NCBI RefSeq assembly: GCF_900115185.1
Contig: NZ_FOVN01000005.1
Location: 7,501 to 71,500 of the forward strand
Direction: 5' to 3'
DNA length: 64,000 nt
Source: Algorimicrobium echini
GTDB lineage: Bacteria > Bacteroidota > Bacteroidia > Flavobacteriales > Flavobacteriaceae
A program made the translations under genes and the position numbers. Below are positions 47,240 to 50,734 of this stretch, one piece after another; positions within the stretch are counted from its first letter, which is position 1; each line of letters starts with the position of its first letter. The notes beneath the pieces are model-generated. The model was not told where the DNA came from and ran no database searches. It saw only the letters and a list, made by a program, of their open reading frames with translations.

Positions 47240-49222
47240 ATGTCAGAGCACGATAACCTGCCCAAAGCAGATGGAAAACCAGAGGAATTACAACCTGAAA
47301 CAAGTGAAAACGTTCAAGAACAACAGGAAATTCCTCAAAAACCAACACCTTCCGAACCATCAGAAAACATTGATACTGAAGCGCCTGTTACCCAAGAAAA
47401 AACAGAAGAATTGGATAAAGAAGATCCTGATAAAGTTATTAATGAAATTGAAGAATCCAATGCTGAAGACGCTGAAGACGAAGGCAATGCAGATAGGCAT
47501 CACATAGAAGAAAAAGATTACGATAAAATGTCTATGGAAGCTCTAGTAAATGAGCTAGAACATTTGGTTTCGAATCACAAAGTGCAAGCCATTAAAAAAC
47601 AGGTAGAAGCTATTAGAACAGAGTTTAAAGCTCAATTTAACACACTTCTCGACGAGAAAAAAGAAGAATTTTTAAATGATGGTGGAAATGAAATAGATTT
47701 CTTTTTTTCCAGTCCGCTTCAAAAACGGTTCAAAGATATTTACAAAGACTACAAGGGTAAATTACATGCACACCATAAAAACATTGAAAATAATCTAAAA
47801 GATAATTTAGCCAATAGGCTCCAAATTATTGAGGAAATAAAAGGATTATTTAATGATGAAGAAAATATAAATACCACATATAAGCACTTTAAAGAACTTC
47901 AAGATCGCTGGAAAACGGCTGGCCCAATTCCACGTGACAAATACAATAATGCCTGGAATAGTTACCACCATCATGTTGAAGTTTTCTATGATTTTCTGCA
48001 TTTAAACCGTGATTTACGCGATTTAGATTTTAAACATAATTTAGATCAAAAACTAAAAATTATTGAGCGTGCTGAAGAGCTGGCAAAAGACGAAAATTTA
48101 AATCGTGCTTTCCGGGAATTACAGGTTCTTCATAAAATGTGGAAAGAAGAACTTGGCCCAGTTGATAAGGAACATCGTGAAGCTGTTTGGGAACGATTTA
48201 AAGCAGCTACTAAAACAATACATGACAGACGCCAAGCCTATTTTGCCGAATTAGATCAAGTTTATGAGAAGAACTTGGAGGTTAAAAATGAAATTATTGA
48301 GCAAATTAATAAAATAACTGAAAAAGGTGCAGATTCTCATAATGGTTGGCAAAATAGTATTAAAGATGTTGAACAGTTAAGAACAATATTTTTTAGCGCT
48401 GGAAAAGTTCCTATAAGAGTTAACGAAGAAACTTGGGCAAAGTTTAAAGATGCTGTTAGAAGCTTTAATCGCAAAAAAAATGCTTTTTATAAAAATTTAA
48501 AAAAGTCGCAGTTTGATAATCTTCAAAAGAAAATGGAATTAATCCAAATAGCAGAGGATAATAAAGATAGTGACGATTTTGAAACCACAACAGCTTTGAT
48601 GAAAAAAATTCAAAGTGACTGGAAAAAAATTGGTCATGTGCCACGTAAAAACAGCGATAAAATATGGAAACAATTTAAAACAGCTTGTAATCATTATTTT
48701 GACCGTTTACATAAAGCAAAAGACACTGCAAATGCAGAAGGAAATGAAGCTTTCTCTAAAAAAGTACAATTACTTGAAGAATTGAAAACTATCAACTTAT
48801 CAGGTGAAAAAGAAACGGATTTAGAAACTATAAAAGCATTTATTGAAAACTGGAAGTCGGTTGGCAATGTGCCATCTAACAAGCGTTATATTGAAGGAAA
48901 GCTCAATAAAGCCTTGGACGGTGTTTTCAAAAAATTAAATCTCAATAAAAATGAAGCCGAATTAATAAAATTTGAAACCAAGTTAGAAACGCTTAATAAT
49001 TCTGAAGATTCGAGACATTTAGATAATGAACGTCAATTTATTAGGAAGCGTATTACAGAAGTTAAAGCTGAAATTAATCAGTTGGAAAATAATTTGCAGT
49101 TTTTTCAGAATGTTAATGATGAAAACCCATTAGTCCAAGAGGTTCATAAAAATATTGAAAGACACAAACAAGAATTAAAATTATGGAAAACAAAATTGAG
49201 TAAAATAAAAGAGCTGTATTAA
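47240..49222 (+). CDS. DUF349-repeat protein
   Basis: 660-residue cytoplasmic protein. The first 90 residues are an acidic, low-complexity Glu/Pro tail; then come about five DUF349 helical repeats (recurring pattern LxELQDRWKTAGPIPRDKYNNAW, seen as FKELQDRWKTAGPIPRD, LQVLHKMWKEELGPVDKEH, WQNSIKDVEQL ... KVPIRVNE, SDWKKIGHVPRKNSDKIW, IENWKSVGNVPSNKRYIEG) and a C-terminal coiled coil. Function of the family is not established here. Its transcript ends at the terminator at 49254-49295. Confidence 0.88.
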   Translation: MSEHDNLPKADGKPEELQPETSENVQEQQEIPQKPTPSEPSENIDTEAPVTQEKTEELDKEDPDKVINEIEESNAEDAEDEGNADRHHIEEKDYDKMSMEALVNELEHLVSNHKVQAIKKQVEAIRTEFKAQFNTLLDEKKEEFLNDGGNEIDFFFSSPLQKRFKDIYKDYKGKLHAHHKNIENNLKDNLANRLQIIEEIKGLFNDEENINTTYKHFKELQDRWKTAGPIPRDKYNNAWNSYHHHVEVFYDFLHLNRDLRDLDFKHNLDQKLKIIERAEELAKDENLNRAFRELQVLHKMWKEELGPVDKEHREAVWERFKAATKTIHDRRQAYFAELDQVYEKNLEVKNEIIEQINKITEKGADSHNGWQNSIKDVEQLRTIFFSAGKVPIRVNEETWAKFKDAVRSFNRKKNAFYKNLKKSQFDNLQKKMELIQIAEDNKDSDDFETTTALMKKIQSDWKKIGHVPRKNSDKIWKQFKTACNHYFDRLHKAKDTANAEGNEAFSKKVQLLEELKTINLSGEKETDLETIKAFIENWKSVGNVPSNKRYIEGKLNKALDGVFKKLNLNKNEAELIKFETKLETLNNSEDSRHLDNERQFIRKRITEVKAEINQLENNLQFFQNVNDENPLVQEVHKNIERHKQELKLWKTKLSKIKELY

Positions 49223-49253
49223 AAAAGCTTAAACTCTATTGTGTTATAAAAGT

Positions 49254-49295
49254 AAAATCCTGCTTGCCGTATAAGAACGTCGAGCAGGATTTTTT
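49254..49295 (+). terminator. Terminator after the DUF349 gene
   Basis: Stem AAAATCCTGCT / AGCAGGATTTT closed by an 18-base loop, followed by T residues. Confidence 0.85.
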
Positions 49296-49531
49296 CTAAC
49301 TAAACTAACTAATAGTTGTTTTGTCCCAACCTAAACAACTAAATCTACTTACATGCACGTTATAAGGAAAGTTATTTATGATTATGCTATTAATCTACTA
49401 ATGAACGTGCATTTGTTATATATACGCACATAAAATAGATTTGGACGTTTTGTTTTAAATATTTTTTAAAAATTAACACAAACACTTTAAAAACAACAGC
49501 TTAAAACCTTTATTTCTTAACTTCTGCCGAA
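49296..49531. other. Gene-free gap before the tandem array
   Basis: No coding frame of interest. One 9-base inverted repeat is present: ATGCACGTT (49353-49361) and AACGTGCAT (49404-49412), 42 bases apart. Nothing else is recognisable. Confidence 0.5.
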
Positions 49532-49980
49532 TTACTGTTTTTTGGCTTCCTAAATTTTTTAAATTATTTGAAAACCTGAAAATGGTTTTCAATTACTGTT
49601 TTTTGGCTTCCTAATTTTTTTAAATTATTTGAAAACCTGAAAAATGGTTTTCAATTACTGTTTTTTGGCTTCCTAATTTTTTTAAATTATTTGAAAACCT
49701 GAAAATGGTTTCCAATTACTGTTTTTTGGCTTGCTAATTTTTTTAAATTATTTGAAAACCTAAAAAAATGGTTTTCAATTACTGTTTTTTGGCTTCCCCT
49801 TTTTTTAAATTATTTGAAAACCTGAAATTGGTTTTCAATTACTGTTTTTTGGCTTCCTGATTTTTTTAAATTATTTGAAAACCTGAAAATGGTTTTCAAT
49901 TACTGCTTTTTGGCTTCCTGATTTTTTTAAATTATTTGAAAACCTGAAAATGGTTTTCAATTACTGCTTTTTGGCTTCCT
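49532..49980. repeat. Tandem array of 60-63 bp units derived from the mazG 3' end
   Basis: Seven consecutive units start (plus strand TTACTG) at 49532, 49593, 49655, 49716, 49779, 49839 and 49900; the eighth start, 49961, is the mazG stop codon itself. Lengths are 61, 62, 61, 63, 60, 61 and 61 bases. Read on the minus strand, each unit carries a copy of the last 20 bases of mazG (six codons and stop), then a hairpin TTGAAAACC-loop-GGTTTTCAA, then an A-rich segment. The stem is kept in all units but one (one base change near 49711), while loop length varies (TGAAAAT, TGAAAAAT, TAAAAAAAT, TGAAATT). Units 6 and 7, nearest mazG, differ by one base. Lengths not divisible by 3 rule out coding. Confidence 0.95.
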
Positions 49981-50734
49981 CCCAAAAAACATCCATTTCA
50001 CGGAGTGTCATGTCTTTTAAGTTTTTGTTTAAAGATTTGGCTTTCAATTCTAAATACTGAAAGCGCTTGCTAAATTTTTTATTGGTTCTTTCTAGTGCAT
50101 TTTCAGGGTTAATACCTAAATACCTTGCATAATTTACCATAGAAAAAAGAACATCACCAAATTCACTTTCCATAGCTTCTTGGTTACCAGCTTTCACTTC
50201 GTCTTGAAATTCTTGAAGCTCCTCCTCCACTTTTTCCCAAACCTGTTTAGGTTCATCCCAATCGAATCCGACACCAGAAACTTTTTCTTGAATCCTACTA
50301 GCTTTTACTAGTGCTGGTAAACTTTTTGGAACACCTTCCAAAACACTTTTTTTACCTTCTTTAAGTTTTAAATTTTCCCAGTTTCGTTTTACATCTGCTT
50401 CATTTTCAACTTTAACATTGCCATAAATATGTGGATGTCTATGAATGAGTTTTTCGCAAATACCATTACAAACATCAGCTATATCAAAATGGTTGGTTTC
50501 GCTTCCAATTTTAGCATAGAAAACTATATGTAGAAGCACATCACCCAGCTCTTTTTTTACCTCATTTAAATCGTGATCTAAAATAGCATCGCCCAATTCG
50601 TAAGTTTCCTCTATGGTTAAATGGCGAAGGGTTTCCATAGTTTGCTTTTTATCCCAAGGACATTGCGCACGCAAATCATCCATGATGGTTAATAGTCTAT
50701 TAAAAGCTTGTAGTTGATCTTCTCTGGTATTCAT
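49961..50734 (-). CDS. mazG: Nucleoside triphosphate pyrophosphohydrolase MazG
   Basis: House-cleaning enzyme that hydrolyses NTPs and dNTPs to monophosphates. The 257 residues hold two MazG domains: first about 8-110 (CPWDKKQTMETLRHLTIEETYEL, ELGDVLLHIVFYAKI; divalent metal ligands EExxE/ExxD) and second about 165-245 (KVEEELQEFQDEVKAG, ESEFGDVLFSMVNYARYL), with RHPHIYG and VSGVGFDWDEP linking them. Normal family length. Its last 20 bases are repeated seven times in the array directly downstream. Confidence 0.95.
   Translation of the reverse strand: MNTREDQLQAFNRLLTIMDDLRAQCPWDKKQTMETLRHLTIEETYELGDAILDHDLNEVKKELGDVLLHIVFYAKIGSETNHFDIADVCNGICEKLIHRHPHIYGNVKVENEADVKRNWENLKLKEGKKSVLEGVPKSLPALVKASRIQEKVSGVGFDWDEPKQVWEKVEEELQEFQDEVKAGNQEAMESEFGDVLFSMVNYARYLGINPENALERTNKKFSKRFQYLELKAKSLNKNLKDMTLREMDVFWEEAKKQ

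Follow-up and report, generated by a model that had tools for sequence, protein, structure and literature searches.

In the window (the whole 64,000-nucleotide stretch of DNA analysed here), the 3′ end of mazG continues into a tandem array whose units each carry the gene's last codons and stop, a stem-loop and a short linker. Gene end, tandem repeat and hairpin are coupled in such a way that mazG need not suffer when the repeats turn over, and the coupling is met again at this one gene in many members of a bacterial family. The array is patchy in the family; the units of any one species are uniform, and the stem is conserved from genus to genus. The reading we prefer, with a probability of about 0.5, is a mazG-specific tail-swap minisatellite that is kept and reshaped by recombination and whose first stem-loop acts on mazG mRNA. 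Each unit restores a correct mazG end, so that tail copies could undergo unequal exchange or slipped pairing and the array could grow, shrink or vanish with no harm to MazG; an array would expand, acquire the species' own tail and then be lost again. More tentatively, the first stem-loop may be the constrained part, affecting termination or turnover of mazG mRNA, and the farther units might be by-products or an added dose. The suggested effect on mRNA draws on E. coli REPs, which, according to PMC12306157, lower translation when they lie within 15 nt of a stop. No account of the array was found in a search of open-licence literature.

The mazG gene (49961–50734, minus strand) encodes 257 aa and matches Pfam MazG (PF03819, E 2.4e-38); its last codons and stop form the first tail copy. 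The whole array, mazG's own tail included, occupies 49530–49980 on the same strand, where TRF reports a period of 61, 7.4 copies and 94% matches at a score of 791. An initial annotation had described units of 60–63 bp that repeat the mazG tail with its stop and a hairpin with a 9-bp stem, and this was borne out by TRF and by the individual units. Eight tail copies, counting the gene's own, alternate with seven stem-loops in units of 61, 61, 60, 63, 61, 62 and 61 bp. Read in the mazG sense, a unit consists of the last codons and stop (GGAAGCCAAAAAGCAGTAA; 19–20 bases are copied, stop included), the stem-loop (TTGAAAACC-loop-GGTTTTCAA) and the linker. A pattern requiring a perfect 9-bp stem matches six of the seven stems, all on the minus strand: stem-loop 1, directly 3′ of the mazG stop (49936–49960), stem-loops 2 (49875–49899) and 3 (49814–49838), stem-loop 4 with its longer loop (49752–49778), and stem-loops 6 (49629–49654) and 7 (49568–49592), the last being farthest from mazG. 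Stem-loop 5 (49691–49715, minus strand) has a single stem base changed and escapes the perfect pattern. The array closes with a tail copy that no further hairpin follows (49530–49551, minus strand). The RNA fold of the array lies far below those of shuffled sequences (z −5.08; 0 of 100 shuffles as low), and that the array is well beyond chance is confirmed. As the annotation had also held, it is neither a CRISPR, with identical repeats and unique spacers, nor a coding minisatellite: it is the whole unit that repeats, at the 94% matches given above and without unique spacers, and there is no coding repeat. No Rfam family reaches its gathering threshold in window positions 49200–50100.

Stem-loops per array vary between species from 1 to 9 (one genome per species). 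Units differ from the consensus of their species at 0 to 4 positions, the last listed unit being left out, and alternating units in G396 show the duplication of a two-unit block. The annotation had divided the units of the window into a group near mazG with the gene's variant and a farther group with a different one. The division stands with a smaller near group: the gene's variant (CTGCTTTTT, plus strand) is found only in mazG's own tail and the first copy, and copies farther from mazG carry CTGTTTTTT. Its suggestion of growth at the gene end is sustained in part. Neighbouring units on the gene side share variants in the window, in G001, in G374 and in Olleya namhaensis. In four of nine arrays, though not in that of the window, deviation is greater in the last unit than in the first, partly via flanking bases.

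Between species, identity over the 14 stem positions is 91.7%, as compared with 39.3% for mazG four-fold sites and 41.4% for 8 linker bases taken ungapped. These values come from the same 204 species pairs at 21 loci, with L080 left out for its length and pairs within two close groups also omitted. Pairing is kept as well: 88.2% of cells pair among 17 distinct sequences, at most 67.2% do so when the stem is slid, and three of the nine stem pairs show changes on both sides. When set against shuffles, the number of cells paired and the covariation score stood out (1 of 500 each), whereas two of the five measures, pairs with changes in both partners (76 of 500) and pair types (303 of 500), did not. 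In the genus with code g142 the stem reads TTGGAAATC-TAT-GATTTCCAA, with both arms changed and pairing retained. The stem begins 0–7 nt past the mazG stop in 22 of 22 loci. The loop, which the annotation had correctly described as variable beside a conserved stem, ranges from 3 to 11 nt between species, a spread that disfavours a dimer operator of fixed spacing.

The array is found only at mazG, with two doubtful exceptions. A search for the same unit elsewhere, which the annotation had proposed as a check, returned one place only when the array was compared with its own genome by BLASTN. Across six genomes of the genus, the perfect-stem pattern found the mazG arrays of G000, G001 and G003 and otherwise two unrelated palindromes (G002). 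G003 has three stem-loops and G001 nine, each with a tail and hairpin variant of its own. The array is absent from G002, neither mazG nor array was found in G004, and in UBA5079 (G005) a 290-N assembly gap occupies the array site, with tail on both sides (L032, 4769–5058). The array site is a spot where draft assemblies break. Among 10 genomes reached through loci, six matched the hairpin pattern, all at mazG; G043 has a further match at the end of a contig, where array units occur without mazG. In a 400-kb sample of G001 together with the window, no arrays other than the two at mazG overlap an ORF stop, and a general habit of gene ends is accordingly rejected.

The distribution in the family was followed from mazG and, separately, from the hairpin. 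The named-genome scan for mazG relatives took the best 80 of 455. We examined 92 mazG loci at an identity of at least 80%, with repeats of the same genome removed; 88 were obtained through mazG similarity and four (L153, L154, L156 and L157) through the hairpin pattern itself. A hairpin is present at 23 of the 92 (19 of the 88 similarity-derived loci); neither reversed control matched any of the 92. Eighteen carriers have a repeated tail, a number that includes the window, though its shorter copies escaped the 14-base test, and excludes L067, whose lone match lies 576 nt away. The other five have the hairpin alone (L042, L052, L085, L093 and a worn L037). Carrier genera include Olleya, Lacinutrix, Algibacter, Flaviramulus, Aurantibacter, Mesoflavibacter and Hyunsoonleella. 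A hairpin-only pattern, containing no mazG sequence, matched 12 of 397 family genomes, seven at mazG and five elsewhere without an array; the reversed-pattern control matched 7 of 397, so that the matches elsewhere are at control level.

With a cut-off of E 0.01, a covariance model (R1) built from 16 tail and hairpin sequences matched 30 of the 397 family genomes, each of which was inspected at one locus. The strong matches (at least 42 bits) fall in 20 genomes of 16 genus codes and all 20 lie at a mazG 3′ end, where the hairpins of L215, L216 and L217 are worn; the 10 weaker ones comprise four mazG ends without a hairpin and six places not at mazG. R1 leans to mazG by construction, because the tail is included and some of the searched genomes supplied its sequences. 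Among 395 genomes of the order, R1 matches eight at E up to 0.001, all from the same family and six from genus code g142, in which the array stands at mazG in six of six genomes. A second array piece occurs in two g142 genomes: in G586 it shares the contig of mazG but lies 257 kb away, and in G469 it sits at the edge of a contig. Each far piece adjoins a small gene that lies 0.8 kb behind mazG in G453, and G586 has a run of N beside mazG. The likely source is a rearrangement, or an assembly that broke within the array; a true second array is less likely. A dispersed repeat is ruled out by the BLASTN search of the own genome and by the hairpin patterns in the genus, the locus-linked genomes and the 397 family genomes. 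For the queries used, viral contigs (searched with patterns) and phages and plasmids (searched by BLASTN) gave no match, and a phage or plasmid passenger is rejected on these grounds.

On the mazG tree of the 92 loci, the presence of the array takes 15 changes, and also 15 with UBA5079 counted as present. Shuffled presence takes 21.3 changes on average and at least 18 in 200 trials, which indicates that real presence is clustered. All 23 carriers fall within one clade of 78 rows; g142, which lies outside that tree, also carries the array. Hairpin distance weakly tracks mazG distance (r 0.22, p 0.023; r 0.20, p 0.12 with one locus per close group). Among nine loci of one type, the segment separating tail from hairpin shows 75% identity, and between these loci and g142 it shows 63%, the mazG averages for the same comparisons being 78% and 75%.

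The layout of the arrays is tail-(hairpin-tail)n. Past the final hairpin one often meets a further mazG end, untranslated but carrying a stop codon: WEEAKKL-stop in Algibacter luteus, WEEAKRL-stop in L054, REEAKKI-stop in G259 and KKL-stop in g142. The translated mazG of those loci ends differently (KRLPK and the like), with the end supplied by the unit. Judged by eye, the older end is readable at 19 of 32 loci, where the insert is thus flanked by a duplicated target, and worn or absent at 13; three loci with worn hairpins (L037/L216, L215 and L217) were left out of this count. Because an older, untranslated end can be read beyond the last unit, it follows that the unit was inserted just before the old mazG end and replaced it. 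Plain duplication of the tail together with its natural downstream sequence fails as an explanation, because the translated end, which comes from the unit, differs from the old end. Old ends are readable in many loci, and recent entry is therefore favoured over one ancient array with losses, a point that counts against the reading we prefer. Readable old ends also go with fewer units (median 1 vs. 3, one-sided p 0.008, for species that are not independent and with some counts rough). Translated and displaced tails were also compared by eye for synonymous differences that might point to a donor; this signal was dropped, as simple decay predicts about the same mix. In L251 (G513), a stop (CTT GTT TAA) seems to interrupt the mazG frame a little upstream of the WEEAK codons.

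Insertion of this kind could be the work of a minimal, gene-less mobile element of 50–60 nt, consisting of the mazG tail, stop and hairpin and thus carrying the last codons of its one target. A putative trans-acting enzyme, recognising the hairpin or the WEEAK codons, would have inserted it repeatedly into the mazG 3′ end in many genera, swapping the C-terminus and, by entry on the gene side, pushing older copies outward into a stack. The replaced C-terminal codons with the old end remaining as a direct repeat are in keeping with such an element, as are the patchy presence, with its 15 changes among 92 loci, the few units that accompany readable old ends, the variants common to gene-side units and the retention of both stem sequence and pairing. 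We nevertheless consider it rather unlikely, as copies at other genes do not rise above the control level and none were met in viral contigs, phages or plasmids with the queries used. Moreover, the cassette would be one without recent spread, because divergence in the segment preceding the hairpin is close to that of mazG itself (0.75 vs. 0.78 identity within one type).

A neutral minisatellite, in which one old chance duplication around the mazG end has since changed in length by slippage and serves no function, would explain the variable copy number, the uniform units and the loss in most relatives. It is doubtful in view of a stem whose conservation far exceeds that of four-fold sites or linker, of arrays that end in a tail and an older, different gene end instead of a repeated tail and hairpin, and of the 400-kb G001 sample and window, where no other array overlaps a gene stop. 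The annotation had further raised the idea of serial intrinsic terminators, serving mazG or the opposite transcript of the convergent DUF349 gene (47240–49222, plus strand; ORF, Pfam). We regard this as very improbable. In the mazG direction it is rejected, since none of 22 species has a T-tract (5 T in 8 bases) directly behind the first stem. On the plus strand, three weak terminator-like sites are present in the window where 0.9 are expected, but only two of the 22 species have the T-tract in that sense, and a G+C-richer stem with a T run sits nearer DUF349 (49254–49293). The array raises two testable questions: what makes short arrays appear repeatedly at a single site, and does a stem-loop directly 3′ of the stop tune a nucleotide house-cleaning enzyme?

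Several known systems share part of this arrangement. Integrative elements that replace the 3′ end of a gene supply a new end and leave the old one as a direct repeat, much as an array unit supplies the new mazG end while the old end remains; in contrast, the mazG insert is only 50–60 nt long and carries no gene, and copies elsewhere above control level or, for the queries used, on mobile DNA are lacking apart from the two doubtful pieces in G586 and G469. MIRU/VNTR loci of mycobacteria are tandem units next to genes that touch stop codons and vary in copy number. The mazG array resembles them in unit size, in lying beside a gene and in touching its stop, but MIRUs occur as the same repeat at many loci, whereas the mazG array has one locus, a conserved stem-loop and a displaced old gene end. 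Like the bacterial satellites surveyed in PMC6749651, it is a non-coding tandem repeat unique in its genome; satellite families are mostly species-specific according to that survey, whereas the mazG array recurs at one gene in many genera. REPs are marked by a GTAG- or CGTC-type tag (PMC3733652) and by a partner REP transposase. According to PMC12306157, REP/BIME elements are short imperfect palindromes within 15 nt of a stop, clustered and outside genes, and the array likewise places a palindrome outside the gene, 0–7 nt past the stop at all 22 loci. REPs, however, are dispersed in many copies, whereas the array occupies one place in its own genome, the hairpin pattern matches only at mazG in G000, G001 and G003, and every unit has that single gene's end. 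By analogy, the array would work like a stop-proximal REP, and it looks like a MIRU-type repeat, without the dispersal that defines both.

Between mazG and DUF349, outside the array, lies a conserved, unannotated RNA-like element (49234–49458, minus strand), recognised by pattern and covariation. It comprises promoter-like boxes (ATCCAAA and CGTATATA), a covarying stem, GATTAATAGCATA, an invariant GTTAGTTTAGTTAG and a terminator-like stem, and matches no Rfam family at gathering score. A strict pattern places it at 25 of 110 mazG loci (the window and 24 others), and changes on both sides are seen in 11 of 17 predicted pairs. Its exact pattern occurs in four of 120 family genomes, once in each and every time near mazG. 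Elsewhere in G001 (L198, 2284–2440), a tandem repeat of period 33/66 with inverted GCAAACCGTTTGC motifs does not lie at the stop of any ORF of at least 80 aa. In some arrays (L086, L089 and L156), the tail pairs with its flank into a second hairpin, TTTTTTGGGAGGAGGCCAAAAAA.
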